Shown piece after piece: positions 21,087 through 29,374 of a stretch of DNA of 44,433 nucleotides. Numbering within the stretch: the stretch's first letter is position 1; each line of letters starts with the position of its first letter. Position numbers and translations under genes: made by a program. This stretch comes from SAR324 cluster bacterium (GTDB taxonomy: Bacteria; SAR324; JACQKK01): assembly GCA_022573975.1 (NCBI GenBank), contig JACZSY010000005.1:1-44433 (forward strand), read 5' to 3'. The notes under the pieces were generated by a model. It had not been told where the DNA came from. It did no database searches and saw only the letters and a program-made list of their open reading frames with translations.

Positions 21087-22448
21087 TCAATCCAGGGTGT
21101 GCAGGAGAAAGAACTTGGTTTGTCCGGCCCGCAGCTTCACATTCTTGATGATTCGGGTGGACACGACCCCTCCCCCGCTGGAGGTATATTCCACCGTCAG
21201 GGAATGAGTCCCCGGAGGGAGGCTCAGCCGGCCGATCAATATCCGGTCCGGCAGCGTTCTCCATGAGCGGACGTCGGCCACTTCGGTGACTTCCGCCAGC
21301 ACCGAACCGGCGATGGAGGCCAGCAATCCCATTCCGGCGCCGCCACGGGCCTCGGCTTCTTTTTCCGCGGCCTTGCGCACCAGGTACTTGACGGTGGCCC
21401 TGGCGATGGCCTTTACGGCAATTCGCGTTTTGCGGTTTTCCAGGCTCGCCATGGCGATGACGCCCAGCGGTTCCACCAGCTCCAGGGTGGTTCCTCCAAG
21501 GCCGTCAACCCGAATCCGGGCGCCGCTGATCCGATAGGGCACCTTCTGATAGCGTGGAAAGGCGATCTTGACGACAAATCCATCGGGCATGGGCGCCCGA
21601 ATATGGTGTTCCACCTTTACGGGGCTCTGGCCGGCGAAATGGATGAAATAGAGATGGCCTTTCTTGCGCTTTTCCCGAAGGGGGATGAGGTCGGTGGAGG
21701 GAAAAAGGCCCTTGGCCTCCTGGACCTCCTGGCTGCCCATGAACGACGCCGTGGTCAACAGGTTGGAACCCAGCAAGGCAGGAACGCCCACGCCGTAGTT
21801 GGTTTGGAAATCACCCTTGAAGGCCTTGTAGGCCAGCTTGTTGGAAATGTAGGCGTCGTTCAACTCATCGCGGGAGCCCCCCATTTCGTAGAGCACCCCC
21901 ATCAGCATCCTGGCGAAGGCGTCCTCCGTATAAACGTTTTTCTTGCCTTCCTCGTACCGGCTGTTGATCACCACCAGCTTCAGGTTGACCTTGCGCGCCT
22001 CCACCAGGGCGCCTTCCACGTCGCCCAGCTGGACATAATTGAGCGCCCGGAAGATGTTGATGATGACGGACTCGAAATCTTCGCCACTGTACGGGATGGT
22101 GTTGTCGTTGATGAGGAAGGAGGCGGCGATCCTGGAGACCGATTCGGTGTACAAATCATCGATGCGCCGCTCGGCTTGTTCGAAGGCCTGGTTGCTCTTT
22201 TTGAAGCTTCCCGCGTAATGGTAGAGAATCCCACGGTCCAGGTTGAAGAGCACAAGGTTGCGGTCGCCGTATTCCTTGCGGTTTTTTTCCACCAGCTTGG
22301 CGGCGGCGTCATACTTCCCCGATCGGGCCAGGCCGTTGATCTTGAGATAAATCGACTGGTCCTGGGCACAGGATGCCATCCACACCATCGCCGCCAAAAA
22401 CAGGCCAAGGCGGAAACCGCATTTAACCAATATTGACACTTTCAACAT
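21087..22448 (-). CDS. TPR-containing outer-membrane lipoprotein (COG3014-like, LpoB-associated)
   Basis: A 453-residue lipoprotein. ATG 22448 is chosen because GGGGAGGT lies 7 bases before it; it opens a signal peptide ending in the lipobox M-A-S-C. After the Cys comes a region of helical TPR-like repeats (about 30-190, with F-N-L-D-R-G-I-L-Y-H-Y-A-G and a F-R-A-L-N-Y-V-Q-L-G-D-V-E-G-A-L unit), a Gly/Ala-rich segment and a C-terminal beta-rich domain. This matches the family found next to LpoB-like genes in several Gram-negative groups; its role is not established. It follows the lpoB-like gene by 33 bases, and the two very likely form one operon and act together in cell-wall or envelope work. 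Confidence 0.82.
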   Translation of the reverse strand: MLKVSILVKCGFRLGLFLAAMVWMASCAQDQSIYLKINGLARSGKYDAAAKLVEKNRKEYGDRNLVLFNLDRGILYHYAGSFKKSNQAFEQAERRIDDLYTESVSRIAASFLINDNTIPYSGEDFESVIINIFRALNYVQLGDVEGALVEARKVNLKLVVINSRYEEGKKNVYTEDAFARMLMGVLYEMGGSRDELNDAYISNKLAYKAFKGDFQTNYGVGVPALLGSNLLTTASFMGSQEVQEAKGLFPSTDLIPLREKRKKGHLYFIHFAGQSPVKVEHHIRAPMPDGFVVKIAFPRYQKVPYRISGARIRVDGLGGTTLELVEPLGVIAMASLENRKTRIAVKAIARATVKYLVRKAAEKEAEARGGAGMGLLASIAGSVLAEVTEVADVRSWRTLPDRILIGRLSLPPGTHSLTVEYTSSGGGVVSTRIIKNVKLRAGQTKFFLLHTLD

Positions 22449-22481
22449 CCCAACACCTCCCCGGTTGATGAAAACCCGCAT

Positions 22482-23087
22482 TTAAAACCTGAGCTTGGAT
22501 TTTTCGATGAATTTCTTGATTTTCTTGTCTCCGATCCAGACTTTCGTGTTGGTCTCCACGTTGATCAATTCCAGGTTGATCTGGTAAAACATAATCCGTT
22601 TGCCGCCTTCCTGGTCCGAGATGGTGTTCAACTCGCCGGTGAGGATGAAATCGGCGCCCAATTCCCGGCCGATCGCCGCGGGATTGCCGACACTTCCGGT
22701 TTGCTGATCGGCACGTTCCGCCCGTATCGCTTTCTTTTGCTCGCTATCGGCCACCACCGTCACCCTGCCAGATCGCAGAAAGGCCCGTTCCAGGTCTTTC
22801 ATGAAGGTTCGCGTGTTGATGTGCTCGCTGCTTTTGTTTTTCACCCCAAGTGTCATCACCGCGGGATTTTTGCCTTTTTTCTGGATCCATTGATTGATCC
22901 ACGGCCAGGACAGGCTGTCCTTGATCATTTCCTTGGACACCAGCTGGGAGTCCGTGTCGTTCCAACGGCCGCTCAAATCCTTCACTTCACCAGCCTCCAT
23001 CCGGGAGACTTTTTTCCCGCATGAGGCCGCCAAAAAGGCCACGGCCAATAAAATTACCATCCAGCGATATCTATAAATTGCGTTCAT
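22482..23087 (-). CDS. LpoB-like penicillin-binding protein activator lipoprotein
   Basis: LpoB-type lipoproteins sit in the outer membrane and stimulate class A penicillin-binding proteins. The 201-residue product starts M-N-A-I-Y-R-Y-R-W, has a hydrophobic core and the lipobox L-A-A-S-C (Cys about 24), and continues with the family's W-N-D-T-D-S-Q-L-V-S-K-E-M segment, the R-T-F-M-K-D-L-E-R-A-F-L-R-S-G block, G-A-D-F-I-L-T-G-E-L-N-T-I and a C-terminal N-L-E-L-I-N-V-E-T-N-T-K-V-W. The long disordered linker of enterobacterial LpoB is absent, as is usual outside that group. GGGAG lies upstream of ATG 23087. A strong promoter is at 23197-23225. Confidence 0.88.
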   Translation of the reverse strand: MNAIYRYRWMVILLAVAFLAASCGKKVSRMEAGEVKDLSGRWNDTDSQLVSKEMIKDSLSWPWINQWIQKKGKNPAVMTLGVKNKSSEHINTRTFMKDLERAFLRSGRVTVVADSEQKKAIRAERADQQTGSVGNPAAIGRELGADFILTGELNTISDQEGGKRIMFYQINLELINVETNTKVWIGDKKIKKFIEKSKLRF

Positions 23088-23534
23088 GTTTTTCGATCTC
23101 CCAAAGGTGAGCGTGGATACTCCCCCCGCCAAGGTTCAAAAGGGTGGACATTCCCGGGATTGAAGCTTCCCTGATACCCTGTTTCAACAACGCAACATCA
23201 TATTCCATGCGGCTTTCTTTTTCAAACAGCCAACCGAAATGGTGGAATCGCTTTAAACGCGCCACTTTTGGGTATTCCCGGCTGGGAGAAAAAGGTTGCG
23301 GGGCTGGTCCATCGCGGTTTTCCGCGCCCATCCTGACTCCGCCTGGCCGCATCCGGTGCATGGCGCGCGGGAACAAGCACCTGCAAAAGAAAAAGCCGAT
23401 ACACGCCGATGGCGGATGCCGGTTTTCACCCGATCCGCGTTGATCGGCGGTTTGACGGCGCCAAGGAGCAACAAGGGGGGATGTGCCGGGTTTCAGCCTG
23501 TCCGTGATCCCTCCGGACGATGCCGGATGGCGCC
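23088..23534. other. Gap holding the lpoB operon promoter
   Basis: 447 bases between the receptor gene stop and the lpoB-like gene, both minus strand. The right-hand part is the 3' side of the receptor gene and shows no clear terminator; the left part holds the promoter at 23197-23225 and a leader of about 100 bases. A short frame running into lpoB (ending near 23071) was judged not to be a gene. Confidence 0.5.
23197..23225 (-). promoter_or_regulatory. Strong sigma70-type promoter of the lpoB operon
   Basis: On the minus strand TTGAAA (23225-23220), a spacer of exactly 17 bases and TATGAT (23202-23197). Each box differs from consensus at one position. Transcription would start near 23190, giving a leader of about 100 bases before the lpoB-like ATG. 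Confidence 0.7.
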
Positions 23535-25748
23535 TCAACGCTTTTTCTTCCCCCCCTGTTTTTTCTTCCCGCCCCATGGCGTCCAGCGCAGGGTCAACAG
23601 CCCTCTCCTTCCGGGCGGGGGAAAATTGTCTTTTTCCGCGTAGGTGACGTTCCCCAGGTTTCGCCCTTCCAGCGAGACCTGGAAGTATTGGCCGAGGGAA
23701 ACGGAGATCCCGCCGTCGTAAACCGTGAAGGGCCTCAGAAAAATTGTATTGAGGGCATCCACGTACCGTGTCCCCTTGTGGCGGACTTGCAGCCAAAGAT
23801 GCTTCCCGCCCCGCCGCCAGTCCATGGAAACCTTCCACAGCCGGTCTGGAACGCCGGGCACCCGCTTTCCATTGGTGCGGGGATCGACCGCATCGTTTTC
23901 CAGGATCACCGCCCGGGTGCGGGTCCAGGCCGCGTCCATGGAAAATTTGGACGTGAAACGCAGATTCAAGGCCGCCTCGACGCCGGTGGAACGCGTGCGC
24001 GAAACGTTCTCGAAGCGGAACAAACTTGAGCTTTCCGGAGCGGGGAGGGAAATGATGTTGTCGGTGGTGTCCTGCCGGAAATAAAGGGCCTCGCCAAAAA
24101 GCCATTTTCCCCATTCCAGGAAGATGCCCCCGTCGCGGGAAATCGAGTTCTCCGGCCGCAATGCCGGATTGGCCACCGAATCGCCGCTGAAGGCTCCCGG
24201 ATCGTGAAGTTCATAGAGGGTCGGCGGACGGTACCCGGTGGCCACGCTGCCCTTGAGGCCGAATCCTCCGTACAGCGCTTCGCTGAAGGCGGCTCTTCCG
24301 GTGGTGACGGCGTCCAACCCGGACAGGCGGTCATGGCGCAGCGCGGTTTCCAGCGTGCCGGCGTCCCGGTTGAGCGTCCAGGCGGCGTAAATGGCGTAGG
24401 TGTTCCTCTCGGCGCGGAAGGCCCGGTCGTCCAGCACCTGCCGGCTCACGGCCCCGCCGATGCGGAGCTTGGCGCGCTCCCTCCACCGCTCCCACCAGGC
24501 CTCCCCCCCGAACCGGCCGTCGTCGAAAGCGGGGTGGTTGCTTTGGTCCATGGTGGTGTTTTCGATCCGTTGGGAGGAAAGCCGCTCCAGGTGAAGCTTC
24601 CAGCCGAGGGCTTCCGGCGCCGATTCCGGATCGGTTTCGGAATCGCTCCCGCCGGAGAGCGGGATCCCGTCTTCGTACCCCAGCCGGAATCGGCGCCGTT
24701 TTTCCCGGCCGAAAGGGCGGGGGTTTTCCACCCCTCCCAAGCCTTCGCGGCGGTAAGCTTCCAGCAAAGCTGAAATTCGTCCCTCCCGCCCCCGCCGCCA
24801 GTCCAGTTCGAGCGTGGCGATGGTTTTCTCGTTGCAGCGCCGCTCGAAGTACCCTCCTCCCTGGGGCACCGAGCAGCGTTGCGCGCCGGACGGGGTGGTG
24901 TTCGTGGCCGCCGCCCCATCGGGATCGTAATAGATATACCTCCCTTTGGTTTTGCGGAAATTGAAATGAAGGCCCAGGGAGCTTTCCGGCCCTCCCCCCG
25001 CCTCCAGGGGTTGATTCCAGAAAAAATCGCTTTCGAGAAAACCGTGGCTCCCCACTGTGCCGGCCACTACCAGGACAGGCTTTTCAGGCCGCCGGGTGCG
25101 GATGATGATGACCCCCGCGGCCGCTCCCGGTCCGTAAAGCCCCGAGGCGGCCCCCCGCACCACTTCGATCGATTCCACGCGGGAGAGGGAGATGCCGGCG
25201 AGGTCCAATCCGCCGCGGCCCTGGTTTCCGCGGGCCGATGCTTCATTTTGTTCACCGCCCAACGGAAAGCCGTCCAGGAGGATCAGCACCTGATTGCTGC
25301 GGCTGCCCCGGATGGTCACCCGGGTGGGGGAGAGATCGTCGCCGCTCCGGGTCAGGCTGAGTCCGGGTATATCCTCCAGCACGTCCGCCACGGTTTTCTG
25401 GGTGTCCTTGAATTTTTCACGGGTGATCACGGTGCGGGCGCCGGCCTTGAACCGGCCGGTGAGGAAGGGAGGCGGCCGATCTGGCTCCGGGGCCGGGCGC
25501 ACCTCCGTTTCTCCCCCCTCCACCTTGAATTCCGATTCTCCCTGGTCCCGTTGCTGACCCATCGCCCGCCCGCCGGGCGCGAGCCATGCCGAAGCAAAAA
25601 CAAAGAAAATGAGACCCCACGGAATGAATCCACGCCGGGGGCCGGGGGGGGGATGCTCCGGGCCGCGCGGCCCCCGCCCGGACGGCCGCGGAAAATTCCC
25701 TTGGCGCAAACGGTGGCGGAGCCTTTGGGATGAAGCCGGTGCATTCAA
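23535..25748 (-). CDS. TonB-dependent outer-membrane receptor
   Basis: A 22-stranded barrel receptor for TonB-driven uptake. A signal segment (F-I-P-W-G-L-I-F-F-V-F-A-S-A-W-L) is followed by the plug domain with T-V-A-D-V-L-E-D-I-P-G-L, R-V-T-I-R-G-S-R-S-N-Q-V-L-I-L-L-D-G, and V-E-S-I-E-V-V-R-G-A-A-S-G-L-Y-G-P-G-A-A-A-G-V-I. The barrel includes G-Y-R-P-P-T-L-Y-E-L and ends in L-T-L-R-W-T-P-W, after which an added G-G-K-K-K-Q-G-G-K-K-K-R tail breaks the usual terminal aromatic. The start is uncertain; TTG 25748 overlaps the tonB stop (TTGA) and is used. The plug resembles BtuB/FepA types. The nearby cobalamin riboswitch makes a corrinoid a candidate ligand, by inference only. Confidence 0.88.
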   Translation of the reverse strand: MNAPASSQRLRHRLRQGNFPRPSGRGPRGPEHPPPGPRRGFIPWGLIFFVFASAWLAPGGRAMGQQRDQGESEFKVEGGETEVRPAPEPDRPPPFLTGRFKAGARTVITREKFKDTQKTVADVLEDIPGLSLTRSGDDLSPTRVTIRGSRSNQVLILLDGFPLGGEQNEASARGNQGRGGLDLAGISLSRVESIEVVRGAASGLYGPGAAAGVIIIRTRRPEKPVLVVAGTVGSHGFLESDFFWNQPLEAGGGPESSLGLHFNFRKTKGRYIYYDPDGAAATNTTPSGAQRCSVPQGGGYFERRCNEKTIATLELDWRRGREGRISALLEAYRREGLGGVENPRPFGREKRRRFRLGYEDGIPLSGGSDSETDPESAPEALGWKLHLERLSSQRIENTTMDQSNHPAFDDGRFGGEAWWERWRERAKLRIGGAVSRQVLDDRAFRAERNTYAIYAAWTLNRDAGTLETALRHDRLSGLDAVTTGRAAFSEALYGGFGLKGSVATGYRPPTLYELHDPGAFSGDSVANPALRPENSISRDGGIFLEWGKWLFGEALYFRQDTTDNIISLPAPESSSLFRFENVSRTRSTGVEAALNLRFTSKFSMDAAWTRTRAVILENDAVDPRTNGKRVPGVPDRLWKVSMDWRRGGKHLWLQVRHKGTRYVDALNTIFLRPFTVYDGGISVSLGQYFQVSLEGRNLGNVTYAEKDNFPPPGRRGLLTLRWTPWGGKKKQGGKKKR
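23538..23573. repeat. Two 18-bp tandem repeats at the 3' end of the receptor gene
   Basis: Two 18-bp units encode G-G-K-K-K-Q and G-G-K-K-K-R directly before the stop codon, on the minus strand. Confidence 0.8.
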
Positions 25749-27025
25749 GGACGGAAACGGAGGGTTTTTCGCCACAGCACGCGCACCGGCCGGCCATTCG
25801 CCCGGGGGGGGGTGAACACCGCCTTGGCATAGGCCTCCCGCGCGGCGGCCCCGAACCCCCATCCGGACGATTCGCGCACCACCACCACCCGCATCACCTT
25901 TCCGTCCGGCCCAACCAGTATCTCGAGCACCACGCTCCCCCCTCTTCCCAACCGGCGTGCCCGATCCGGGTAGAGCGGGCGGGGAAGTCCACCCAGGATC
26001 CCGAACCCCGCATCCAATGTCTCCGGACGATGGGGAGAAAACCCGGGCGGGCGGGCGCCGCCGCTTCCGCCGGAGTTACGGGCGGTGACGGCCACCGGGG
26101 AAGGGCCGGGCGCGGAGGGCTCCCGCGGCGAGGAGGAATGCGAGTCCTCCCGTTCCTCCCGGGCCGGAGGGGAGGCGGAGGCTTCGAACGAAACCCGGGC
26201 GGTTCGCAGGGCCGGAGCCGCCAGCAAGTCCGGCGAAGGTGGCGGGTTGGAGGCCGCCAGTGATATCCCATGACGGATCGACGCGGTTTCGTTCCGCGGG
26301 CGGTACGGAGGAGAGCGGAGCCGGGAGGCCTCCACTGCCGGTGGCGGTGCGTTTTCGGGTAGTGCTTTTTCGGGCGGTGTTATTTTGGGTAGTGTTTTTT
26401 CAAGCCGTGTTTTTTCGAATGCCGTTGTTTCGGTCACCGGGGCAAGAGACACCGCGGCTGGAGACATCGCGGCAAGAGACATCGCGGCAAGAGACACCGC
26501 GGCTGGAGACATCATGATTTCGGACACCGGGGTTTCGGACAGGGCGTCTCCAGGGGGAGCAGGAAGCCGGGAGGTTGGCCGGATATCCCGCACGCGTTCC
26601 GGGGCCGGTTCGGCCACGGGTGGCGCGAGGCTGGCCGCGTCCAGTTCGGGACGCTTTTGCTTGGGTGGGGTGGCGGCCCGGCGGCGGGGGCGGTGTTGGT
26701 GGAAGGCCTGTTTCGAGACGGCGCTTTTTTGTGCGGGGCGCTTTTTCCGGGCGGATCGGCCAGCGGGGGTCCGCGTGGCCCCGGGTGGCTGAGGGGGCAA
26801 CCGAACCACCTCCAGCAACACCTCCGGCGTTTCGGCGCCAAGCCGTTGGTGGCGGGCCGCCATCCATTCGACGGACGACACCATCGCCAGCCCGGCGGCG
26901 GCGCTCAGCAGCCACCGCGCCGCGGGCAACCACCGCGCCGCGGGCAACCACCGCGCCGGGGGCGCCCATCCCTTCATCCGAGCCGGGATCGCTTTTGACA
27001 TTGTCGCAAGGGTGCGGGTAAGCAT
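25745..27025 (-). CDS. tonB: TonB energy-transducing protein with long repeat-built linker
   Basis: TonB links the ExbB-ExbD motor to outer-membrane receptors. At 426 residues it is far longer than the usual 220-280. The N-terminus carries R-W-L-P-A-A repeats leading into a membrane helix at about 39-57. A long Pro/Ala/Arg-rich periplasmic linker follows, including 13 pentapeptide units at about 162-226 (S-P-A-A-V, S-L-A-A-M, then acidic L-E-K-T and P-E-K-A types). The C-terminal TonB domain (about 345-426) has L-Y-P-D-R-A-R-R-L-G-R-G-G-S-V-V-L-E-I-L-V-G-P-D-G-K-V and ends F-T-P-P-x-x-N-G-R-P-V. Its stop overlaps the receptor start; it diverges from exbB. Confidence 0.9.
   Translation of the reverse strand: MLTRTLATMSKAIPARMKGWAPPARWLPAARWLPAARWLLSAAAGLAMVSSVEWMAARHQRLGAETPEVLLEVVRLPPQPPGATRTPAGRSARKKRPAQKSAVSKQAFHQHRPRRRAATPPKQKRPELDAASLAPPVAEPAPERVRDIRPTSRLPAPPGDALSETPVSEIMMSPAAVSLAAMSLAAMSPAAVSLAPVTETTAFEKTRLEKTLPKITPPEKALPENAPPPAVEASRLRSPPYRPRNETASIRHGISLAASNPPPSPDLLAAPALRTARVSFEASASPPAREEREDSHSSSPREPSAPGPSPVAVTARNSGGSGGARPPGFSPHRPETLDAGFGILGGLPRPLYPDRARRLGRGGSVVLEILVGPDGKVMRVVVVRESSGWGFGAAAREAYAKAVFTPPRANGRPVRVLWRKTLRFRP
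26347..26541. repeat. Thirteen 15-bp tandem repeats in the tonB linker
   Basis: Thirteen consecutive 15-bp steps. The left six resemble gtgttttttcgaatg; the right seven resemble tcgcggcaagagaca, and tcgcggcaagagaca is found twice identically at 26467-26496. Each encodes five linker residues on the minus strand. Confidence 0.92.
26912..26965. repeat. Three 18-bp tandem repeats near the tonB start
   Basis: The unit ccaccgcgccgcgggcaa occurs twice exactly and once with changes. It encodes R-W-L-P-A-A on the minus strand, just before the membrane helix of TonB. Confidence 0.9.
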
Positions 27026-27047
27026 GGCCTAGCCGTGCCGGGGCAGG

Positions 27048-27095
27048 GTGCGGTTTCCTGTGCGGTTTCCCGTGCCGAATCCGGTTGCGCACCCG
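27048..27095. repeat. Four 12-bp tandem repeats between tonB and exbB
   Basis: Units gtgcggtttcct, gtgcggtttccc, gtgccgaatccg and gttgcgcacccg fill part of the 159-base divergent promoter region. Confidence 0.8.
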
Positions 27096-27184
27096 GTTGC
27101 GGACTTTGGTGGCCTGACGGGCGCGGCAACCGGCGCCGCATCCGGGGCGGGAATTCCGGGCGAACGATTTATCGAAAATTCCAC

Positions 27185-27850
27185 ATGTCTTTGATCCCCA
27201 CCCTGATCAGCGAAGGCGGCCCTTTGATGCCGCTGATTGTGTTGGCCGCCCTGGCCGGTTACGTGTTGGCCTGTGAGCGGCTGCTGGTCTGGGCGGGCTG
27301 GCATTGGCGGGACCGTCCGCTGCTCCGGGTAAACAACGGCGCCGAGCTGGCCGGGCGGTTGAAAGAGTTGGCGGCCAAGGCGGACCTCACGCCTTACCGC
27401 AGAATTTTGACTCAGGCCCTTTATGCGGCCAGGTATCCTCCGGACAAACGGGAAGCCGCCGTCCAGGCGGCGGTAATGGGGCAAATTTCCAAAGTGGAGG
27501 CGCGCATCAGCACCATCGGCTGGCTGGGTACGATTCTGCCCCTGCTGGGACTGCTGGGCACCGTGTCCGGAATGATCACCACCTTTGAGCAACTTTCGGT
27601 CACCACATCGCGCCAGGTGCTCTCGGTGGGACTCTCCGAAGCCCTGTGGACCACGGAGGTGGGATTGATCGGGGCGCTGCCCCTGTTGGCGGCGCATCAT
27701 TTGTTGAGCCGGCTCAAGGCCCGCTGGTTGAACCACCTTGAAAGGTCGTTGTCGCTGATCGCCATCACCGCGCGGGCAACGGCCGCCAAGGCGGGCGGGC
27801 GGGGAAAATCCCTCCAACCGGCGCAACCGGGGACGCGTGATGAACCTTGA
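27185..27850 (+). CDS. exbB: ExbB/TolQ-family proton-channel protein
   Basis: Inner-membrane motor subunit that, with ExbD, uses proton flow to energise TonB. The 221 residues have an N-terminal helix with P-L-I-V-L-A-A-L-A-G-Y-V-L-A-C-E-R, a cytoplasmic loop and the paired helices of the family with G-W-L-G-T-I-L-P-L-L-G-L-L-G-T-V-x-G-M-I and the A-L-W-T-T-E-V-G-L segment. The ATG at 27185 is chosen because it begins directly before the first helix. It overlaps exbD by 11 bases, which argues for coupled translation. The divergent tonB gene and the receptor show that this set serves outer-membrane uptake rather than Tol-Pal. Confidence 0.92.
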   Translation: MSLIPTLISEGGPLMPLIVLAALAGYVLACERLLVWAGWHWRDRPLLRVNNGAELAGRLKELAAKADLTPYRRILTQALYAARYPPDKREAAVQAAVMGQISKVEARISTIGWLGTILPLLGLLGTVSGMITTFEQLSVTTSRQVLSVGLSEALWTTEVGLIGALPLLAAHHLLSRLKARWLNHLERSLSLIAITARATAAKAGGRGKSLQPAQPGTRDEP

Positions 27851-28316
27851 CCGATTCCGGCGGGAGGCCGGCGCTCCCTCGGTGCCTCTCACACCCTTGA
27901 TCGACGTGCTCTTTCTCATGATCATCTTCCTGGTGCTGGGCGGCAGTTTCGACACGGTGGAAACCGTCCGCCTTCCCGAAGCCTCCGGCCAACCGGCCAC
28001 GGGAAACGCCTCCACGCTGCGGCTGGAATTGCGCCCCGATGGACGATTGTGGATGGAGGGAAAACCCCTCGCCGCCGAAGATACGATTTCCGCCATCCGG
28101 GCGCTTGGGCCGTCCGCGGTGTTGTTGCTGCCGGACCGGCAGGCGCGGGTGGGGCCGCTGATGCGGTGGTACGACCGCATCCGCAAGGCCCTCGGCATCC
28201 CGGTGCAAATCGGGGTTCGCCCGCCACGGGAAGTTTCGCCGGTTTCGCGGGGTCCGCGGAATTCTCGGGAATCTCGGGATTCTCGGGGATCTTCTGTGCG
28301 CGATCCCGGGCGCTAG
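27840..28316 (+). CDS. exbD: ExbD-family TonB motor subunit
   Basis: Forms the core of the ExbB-ExbD motor. The single helix begins P-L-T-P-L-I-D-V-L-F-L-M-I-I-F, with the essential membrane Asp at residue 22. The periplasmic part has the usual R-L-P-E-A and the A-V-L-L-L-P-D-R-Q-A-R-V-G-P-L motif. The 158 residues end in an Arg/Ser-rich tail from about 134 that contains 9-bp DNA repeats encoding S-R-E/D, a feature not typical of the family. ATG 27840 (GTG directly before it) lies inside the exbB end. The stop overlaps by 4 bases the stop of the convergent riboswitch-controlled membrane gene. Confidence 0.92.
   Translation: MNLDRFRREAGAPSVPLTPLIDVLFLMIIFLVLGGSFDTVETVRLPEASGQPATGNASTLRLELRPDGRLWMEGKPLAAEDTISAIRALGPSAVLLLPDRQARVGPLMRWYDRIRKALGIPVQIGVRPPREVSPVSRGPRNSRESRDSRGSSVRDPGR
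28262..28288. repeat. Three 9-bp tandem repeats at the exbD 3' end
   Basis: Units ttctcggga, atctcggga and ttctcgggg encode N-S-R, E-S-R, D-S-R in the ExbD tail. Confidence 0.8.
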
Positions 28317-28867
28317 CCGATGGATGGCCTGGCAGTGGAAAGCCCGGCGGGCGTCAGCTCCTTCCGCAACACCGGAAACCATCGCTCCGCCAGGGCGAAA
28401 CCCCCGAACAGCAGCACGGTATACATCACGTCGCCGGCCAGGGTGTTGCCAAAGAACGGAATGGCGGCCACGAATGCGGAGACCAGCCCCGCGCCAGTGA
28501 ACGGATAGAGACCGCCCGCCAGCCACACGCCGAAATTGGTGACCACGAAGAACACCAGCGAGGCCGATAGCGCCGCCCCCCCGATCCAAACCGGGTTCAA
28601 CCGCGAACGGATGGCCAGCCCCATGCCGGAAATGAGGAGGATGGCGGCATAAACGAAGGGCATTCCCCCATGAAAACCGATCAACAGATCGCTGAGCAGC
28701 ATCGCCGCCAGGGGCGCGCCGAAGGCGACGGCCCGGTGCTGGAAATACGCGCCGCCGAACAGGGCCATCGCGGCGATGGGGGTGAAGTTGGGGGGATGCG
28801 GCAACAATCGCGAAGCCGCGGCCGCCAATACGATGGCGGCCAGCACATACAAGCGGGATTTCATCAT
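28313..28867 (-). CDS. Small polytopic membrane protein, DUF6580-like, under cobalamin riboswitch control
   Basis: A 184-residue integral membrane protein with five or six helices. The segments N-F-T-P-I-A-A-M-A-L-F-G-G-A-Y-F, L-A-A-M-L-L-S-D-L-L-I-G, V-F-F-V-V-T-N-F-G-V-W-L-A-G-G-L-Y-P and A-A-I-P-F-F-G-N-T-L-A-G-D recall the putative transport family DUF6580, which has the size of ECF transporter S-components; that assignment is from memory. ATG 28867 follows GGAG with 7-base spacing. The leader of about 460 bases contains a cobalamin riboswitch, so the protein probably handles a corrinoid or a cobalamin precursor. Neighbouring TonB-system genes support an uptake role. Transport function is inference. 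Confidence 0.82.
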   Translation of the reverse strand: MMKSRLYVLAAIVLAAAASRLLPHPPNFTPIAAMALFGGAYFQHRAVAFGAPLAAMLLSDLLIGFHGGMPFVYAAILLISGMGLAIRSRLNPVWIGGAALSASLVFFVVTNFGVWLAGGLYPFTGAGLVSAFVAAIPFFGNTLAGDVMYTVLLFGGFALAERWFPVLRKELTPAGLSTARPSIG

Positions 28868-29134
28868 CACTTTGCTCCGGCAGTGGTTGATATCCGGTTC
28901 AATGCTCACCCGAGCCCTCATGGACGGGAAAGCGGGGCGGCGGGAGGCCGCTTCCAGCTTGGGGCGTCATGGCGGACAGGCCGCCGCCCCAGGGCCAAAT
29001 TTCGCCATGAGGCGCCAGCGCGGACTTTCCGCATTTCCTGGCGGGACCCATGGGCGGTTACCGGTGAACGGGAAAGGGCGAAATACGGGACGGATCACCA
29101 GCCCTCCCATTCCACGAGAAGCGACAGGGTAAAG

Positions 29135-29330
29135 CGGGTCGCGGGCCGGTATCCTGGCTGACAGCCTCGATCGCGCCCGGCTTCCCATCGCCGCCGGGTC
29201 TTCCTCCGGCGGAAATGGCTTCATGGGCGCGCGGGACTGATCACAGTGGCGGGTCCACGCCGGATTTTCACCGGCTTCCCGAAGCGGCCGGCATTCATCG
29301 TTTAAAATCATGCGGCCGCCCGTGACCTTC
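29135..29330 (-). promoter_or_regulatory. Cobalamin (B12) riboswitch
   Basis: Read on the minus strand, the leader has the characteristic cobalamin-aptamer blocks in order: GGGAAGCCGGTGAAAATCCGG near 29283-29263, the B12 box region GACCCGCCACTGTGATC near 29254-29238, GGAAGC in GGGAAGCCGG near 29187-29178 and AGCCAGGATACCGGCC near 29160-29145. It precedes the small membrane protein gene by about 270 bases, and that stretch can form stems such as GGGGCG with CGCCCC before the start codon. Riboswitches of this class usually shut off expression when adenosylcobalamin or a related corrinoid is bound. The edges are approximate. Confidence 0.93.
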
Positions 29331-29344
29331 AATTACGTTCCAGC

Positions 29345-29374
29345 AACTTACCGCCCATCCGGAGCCGGAGTCAA
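29345..29374 (-). promoter_or_regulatory. Possible promoter of the riboswitch transcript
   Basis: On the minus strand TTGACT (29374-29369), 18 bases, TAAGTT (29350-29345). The predicted start near 29338 is just where the aptamer begins, which fits, although the -10 box is weak. Confidence 0.45.

Follow-up and report, generated by a model that had tools for sequence, protein, structure and literature searches.

The stretch of DNA analyzed here (referred to as the window; all 44,433 nucleotides of contig JACZSY010000005.1, SAR324 cluster bacterium assembly GCA_022573975.1) contains a cobalamin riboswitch, a gene for a small membrane protein of Pfam family PF20221 (DUF6580), and genes for a TonB system and a TonB-dependent receptor. 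A sequence-only reading had grouped these as a probable corrinoid uptake locus, with a cobalamin aptamer on the minus strand ahead of the small gene. The covariance model RF00174 matched this aptamer over its full length (29127..29338, minus strand; model positions 1-189 of 189, 66.9 bits, E = 1.7e-14, gathering score of 31.5 bits), and the window holds no cobalamin aptamer besides this one, at 29338-29127. It precedes the DUF6580 gene on the same strand (28313..28867, minus strand), which encodes 184 amino acids, or 202 if translation starts at an upstream ATG at 28921. Genes for an ExbB-type proton channel subunit (27185..27850, plus strand; PF01618, 75 bits) and ExbD (27837..28316, plus strand; PF02472, 45.3 bits) lie on the opposite strand, and the ends of exbD and the DUF6580 gene overlap by 4 bp. 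Because exbB and exbD converge on the DUF6580 gene, the riboswitch can control only that gene, as the earlier reading had held. Beyond them are genes for a TonB-family protein with a long low-complexity linker (25745..27025, minus strand; TonB_C PF03544, 58.3 bits) and for a TonB-dependent receptor with plug and barrel domains (23535..25862, minus strand; start codon uncertain), so that the described arrangement of exbB-exbD, tonB and receptor around the small gene was borne out by Pfam. No btuCDF genes are present in the window. The best NCBIfam model for the receptor is TonB-B12 (TIGR01779), but the score of 125 bits falls short of the model's cut-off, which is 599.7; the receptor therefore does not qualify as a BtuB equivalog, and its proposed specificity for corrinoids is suggested by gene context. 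No terminator-like site was found on the minus strand between the aptamer and the ATG; the leader folds scarcely better than shuffled sequences (z = -1.1), and a search for an expression platform gave nothing clear.

The small protein matches PF20221, described as a "family of unknown function," with 180.8 bits (E = 3e-53; gathering score of 27 bits). This was its only Pfam match, the S-component family models PF12822 and PF07155 among those unmatched, and no NCBIfam model matched it. The sequence-only reading had noted that the protein has the size of an S-component, the substrate-binding subunit of energy-coupling factor (ECF) transporters. Two lines of evidence now support an S-component fold. 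First, a profile of 44 DUF6580 sequences searched against the Protein Data Bank (PDB) reached a single chain at E values up to 10, 6fnp_A (E = 9.8e-4), and a profile of 18 sequences with the window protein left out again reached only this chain (E = 2.2e-4). The entry 6FNP shows ECF-CbrT, a cobalamin transporter of the ECF type from Lactobacillus delbrueckii (PMC5997447), and is thus the only solved structure to which DUF6580 profiles lead, at E values from 2e-4 to 1e-3. A single-sequence phmmer search with the window protein found no match in the PDB, so the link to CbrT is made only through profiles of homologues. Second, the AlphaFold model of the protein is confident (pLDDT of 94.9, pTM of 0.88), and its best eight Foldseek matches in the PDB are all ECF S-components (ThiT, FolT, RibU and others), with probabilities of 0.57-0.91 and TM-scores up to 0.64/0.70. 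Since the E values of these matches are 0.57 and above, the fold assignment relies on their agreement and on the TM-scores. Together, the evidence for a six-helix S-component fold is good but not overwhelming.

We collected further DUF6580 loci by scanning 84,980 species genomes with a protein pattern, disregarding riboswitches. The scan yielded 51 loci from many phyla. Of the 50 loci searched with Rfam, 18 have a cobalamin riboswitch no more than about 5 kb away. The 436 kb searched hold 19 aptamers, whereas the density in a set of 58 relative genomes (62 aptamers over the cut-off in ~206 Mb) predicts 0.13. This estimate rejects chance co-occurrence, also when the background density is raised fivefold, and the check proposed with the sequence-only reading, whether homologues occur behind B12 riboswitches elsewhere, thus came out in its favor. 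The riboswitch lies upstream of the DUF6580 gene on the same strand in 12 of the 18 loci, and the order riboswitch, TonB-dependent receptor, DUF6580 occurs in six (L008, L013, L020, L022, L025 and L029). TonB-B12 is the best receptor model in L013, L020, L022 and L025, as well as for the divergent receptor of L009. Other neighbors also point to B12: metH lies directly downstream of DUF6580 in L020, and genes for BtuF-superfamily periplasmic binding proteins are found nearby in L008, L026 and L055. All five PP-loop ATPases adjoining DUF6580 (in L008, L011, L028, L050 and L060, the last at 1926-2642) carry the E-x-G-E-F-H signature of the DUF71-B12 subgroup, for which a role in B12 salvage was predicted from clustering with B12 transport genes (PMC3541065); their presence here extends that link. 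In two loci (L027:1588-5519 and L056:550-4162), the gene for the adenosylcobalamin-dependent ribonucleotide reductase NrdJ is followed by genes for a DUF4430 protein and DUF6580, much like the nrdJ-cbrS-cbrT-pduO cluster in which L. delbrueckii cbrT sits. L027 comes from a Patescibacteria-labelled bin of ~0.8 Mb and L056 from another uncultured bacterium.

Within the taxonomic family of the source bacterium, three of the ten genomes searched encode DUF6580 (the window genome, G002 and G007), and in all three a cobalamin riboswitch lies ahead of the gene. In G002 (locus L061), one riboswitch at 802-984 heads the entire set, consisting of a BtuB-like receptor (298.5 bits to the TonB-B12 model), ExbB, ExbD, TonB and DUF6580. 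In G007 (locus L060), the riboswitch is followed by the DUF71-B12 ATPase gene and DUF6580, with exbD-exbB convergent and tonB and the receptor gene beyond, as in the window; the receptors of the two loci are 56% identical and the ExbB proteins 66% over 179 amino acids. A third relative, G009 (locus L073), has counterparts of the window receptor, TonB and ExbB (463, 61 and 192 bits), whose order and orientation are unchanged and which again adjoin a cobalamin riboswitch. Here, however, the place of DUF6580 is taken by a single protein that joins an S-like membrane domain to a pair of ABC ATPases (S-EcfA-EcfA'), followed by EcfT/CbiQ. A riboswitch followed by a fused protein of this kind and EcfT is also found in G006 (locus L071). 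In both regions (L073:4387-8051 and L071:3284-7833, riboswitch and EcfT included), the fusion is itself unusual, with one long open reading frame holding the S-like domain and both ECF ATPases. EcfT was not found in any of the three family genomes with DUF6580. Within one bacterial family, the same slot thus holds either a solitary DUF6580 protein or a full ECF transporter, and the two are mutually exclusive in the genomes seen. Profile comparison detected no sequence similarity between DUF6580 and the S-domain of the fusion. S-components usually lack sequence similarity to one another. We therefore describe the exchange, by analogy, as replacement in the same slot and not as orthology. A binning artefact is not favored as an explanation of the locus, given that two relatives carry the layout of the window or its ECF counterpart.

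The source genome (G000) is a draft of 4.38 Mb in 428 contigs, estimated to be 93.4% complete, in which gene absences were assessed by single-family searches. It encodes the B12-dependent methionine synthase MetH and a PduO-type adenosyltransferase, while CobS had no match in it or in G002 and G007. The bacterium thus uses B12 and is probably unable to complete its synthesis or to salvage free precursors. The sequence-only reading had seen no btuCDF importer; in the genome as a whole, the only matches to the BtuC-type permease family (FecCD) were two weak ones (21.8 and 21.3 bits) under the cut-off of 26.5, and in this 93%-complete draft EcfT (CbiQ family) had none. Both searches gave matches in most well-known control genomes, which indicates that they work. 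Among 35 other DUF6580 genomes, a strong BtuC-like permease is missing from 31, and EcfT/CbiQ over the cut-off from 29.

Taken together, these data make it quite probable that DUF6580 performs the inner-membrane step of cobamide (vitamin B12) uptake in this B12-auxotrophic Gram-negative bacterium, as a solitary carrier of the S-component kind. A role in corrinoid uptake is strongly supported by the riboswitch, the family-wide linkage to B12, the neighboring genes, the loci of relatives (the whole set under one riboswitch in L061, a full ECF transporter in the slot in L073), the profile match to CbrT and the fold, and the uptake locus first proposed from sequence is upheld; of the refutation tests set for it, none that computation could address went against it. 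We further infer transport itself, its substrate, the absence of any ATPase partner and trapping as the driving force. In the mechanism we propose, the receptor, powered by its dedicated TonB-ExbB-ExbD complex, would bring corrinoid into the periplasm, where DUF6580 would bind it and, with no ECF ATPase module involved, carry it across the inner membrane, probably by the toppling movement that has been proposed for BtuM. The corrinoid would then be trapped in the cytoplasm through adenosylation by the PduO-type enzyme and binding to MetH, and plentiful cobalamin would, via the riboswitch, shut off the carrier only. Compared with BtuB-BtuCDF, the system would likewise combine riboswitch control with a TonB-dependent receptor that feeds an inner-membrane corrinoid importer, but one small protein would take the place of the ABC importer, consistent with the lack of a BtuC-type permease over the cut-off in the source genome.

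Among the closest known systems is BtuM of Thiobacillus denitrificans, a solitary B12 carrier in which an invariant cysteine ligates cobalt (PMC6072759). BtuM is likewise a small six-helix protein of S-component fold from Gram-negative bacteria, linked to BtuB and mediating B12 uptake in genomes that have no ECF module. Unlike BtuM, the window protein contains no cysteine. The residue at its position 131, which belongs to a helical segment (125-134) that follows the last loop, is a cysteine in 43 of 52 DUF6580 homologues, alanine in the window protein and L060, and serine in L061. Because its lineage lacks this cysteine, the window protein is not a BtuM. Up to E = 10, the profile searches reached 6fnp_A and nothing else, in a PDB copy that was not separately checked for a BtuM chain. 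By S-component topology, with the N terminus inside, position 131 would lie at the periplasmic end, the substrate side of S-components. In most members, the cysteine may serve as a cobalt ligand like that of BtuM. Should that be the case, the residue has been lost in the window lineage, where transport must then be independent of it.

Several observations weigh against this assignment. No riboswitch was found near 32 of the 50 DUF6580 loci, and the riboswitch-less Bdellovibrio loci L014 and L018 adjoin genes for acetyl-CoA synthetase and Dus. The score of the window receptor is well under that required of a BtuB equivalog, the Foldseek E values are high, and four of the 35 other DUF6580 genomes have a strong FecCD match while six have EcfT/CbiQ over the cut-off. 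The source assembly is an incomplete and fragmented draft. In addition, solitary CbrT did not support B12-dependent growth in Escherichia coli (PMC5997447), so a CbrT-like sequence alone does not imply transport without a module.

We considered whether DUF6580 might carry cobalt, or else a precursor or degradation product of corrinoids (cobinamide, alpha-ribazole or a lower-ligand base), in place of the complete cobamide. Riboswitch-linked genes in other bacteria include precursor and cobalt transporters, and the DUF71-B12 neighbors hint at remodelling of foreign cobamides. ECF-CbrT also takes cobinamide (PMC5997447). Against this, without CobS free precursors could not be completed in the source bacterium, G002 or G007, DUF6580 genes elsewhere adjoin those for BtuB-like receptors and for enzymes that use B12, and the sole structural relative found by sequence binds cobalamin as well as cobinamide; such a cargo is therefore unlikely. 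Somewhat less likely still is that DUF6580 continues to work with an ECF module (EcfT and two ATPases) encoded elsewhere, as in ECF-CbrT. The profile link to CbrT, the occupation of the slot by a complete ECF transporter in L073 and the six genomes with EcfT/CbiQ would fit this arrangement. Against it, most DUF6580 genomes, including the source genome and both relatives, yielded no EcfT. CbrT differs from DUF6580 in belonging to PF12822 and requiring EcfT and two ATPases. The relatives' transporter in L073 and L071 shares with DUF6580 the bacterial family, the position behind a cobalamin riboswitch and, in L073, the exbB-exbD, tonB and receptor neighbors, but is a complete S-EcfA-EcfA' fusion with EcfT. 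The helix-1 AXXXA motif, by which S-components bind EcfT (PMC11109136), is also not conserved: a loose regular expression that counted any position in helix 1 found it in only 7 of 52 homologues, the window protein among them. Its poor conservation and the absence of EcfT from the source genome, the two relatives and 29 of the 35 other carriers argue for a module-free mode. That DUF6580 is no transporter at all, being a membrane sensor, chaperone or corrinoid-modifying protein of S-component-like fold, is improbable: sensor kinases and MreD do show this fold (PMC11109136) and the common cysteine could perform corrinoid chemistry as in BtuM, but DUF6580 carries no attached signalling domain, occupies a transporter's place in a conserved locus and usually occurs in genomes lacking BtuC and EcfT.

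Solitary B12 carriers of S-component fold are already known from BtuM, and on present evidence the DUF6580 protein of the window is probably another such carrier. We consider the odds about even for a more general proposal, that DUF6580, found in Bacteroidota, Chlorobiota, Ignavibacteria, Planctomycetota, Omnitrophota and Bdellovibrionales, represents a widespread class of module-free cobamide carriers in which one 20-kDa protein without an ATPase replaces an ECF transporter at the same locus, and most of which may ligate cobalt through the conserved cysteine that the window lineage lacks. Many B12-dependent Gram-negative bacteria possess BtuB and lack BtuCDF, and their inner-membrane importer is mostly unknown (PMC6072759); DUF6580 supplies a concrete candidate in many such genomes. 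The conserved locus, where an ECF transporter has been exchanged for one small protein, also provides a natural experiment on solitary vitamin carriage by S-components, and the existence of members with and without the cysteine permits a direct test of whether transport needs cobalt ligation. We found no paper naming DUF6580, although older comparative-genomics papers on B12 lay outside the search, and an earlier prediction is thus possible.

Exactly two cobalamin riboswitches in the source genome score over the cut-off. The second (111.7 bits) is followed by genes for a lipoprotein of ~460 amino acids and another of 151, the whole region being L059:7658-9954 (G000:C169:33657 to the contig end), and homologues of the larger one also follow riboswitches in L067, L069 and L074. 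The larger protein may be a BtuG-like binder of B12 at the cell surface; when it was examined as a BtuG relative, neither a Pfam family nor, convincingly, any PDB structure matched it, and its structural model was poor (pLDDT of 45.8). In the window, an LpoB-like lipoprotein gene (22482-23132; PF13036, 137 bits) lies beyond the receptor gene, followed by an unmatched lipoprotein-like open reading frame at 21087-22481. The tonB linker (26435-26968) contains in-frame tandem repeats, with a 15-nucleotide unit repeated five times in register and an 18-nucleotide unit repeated three times.

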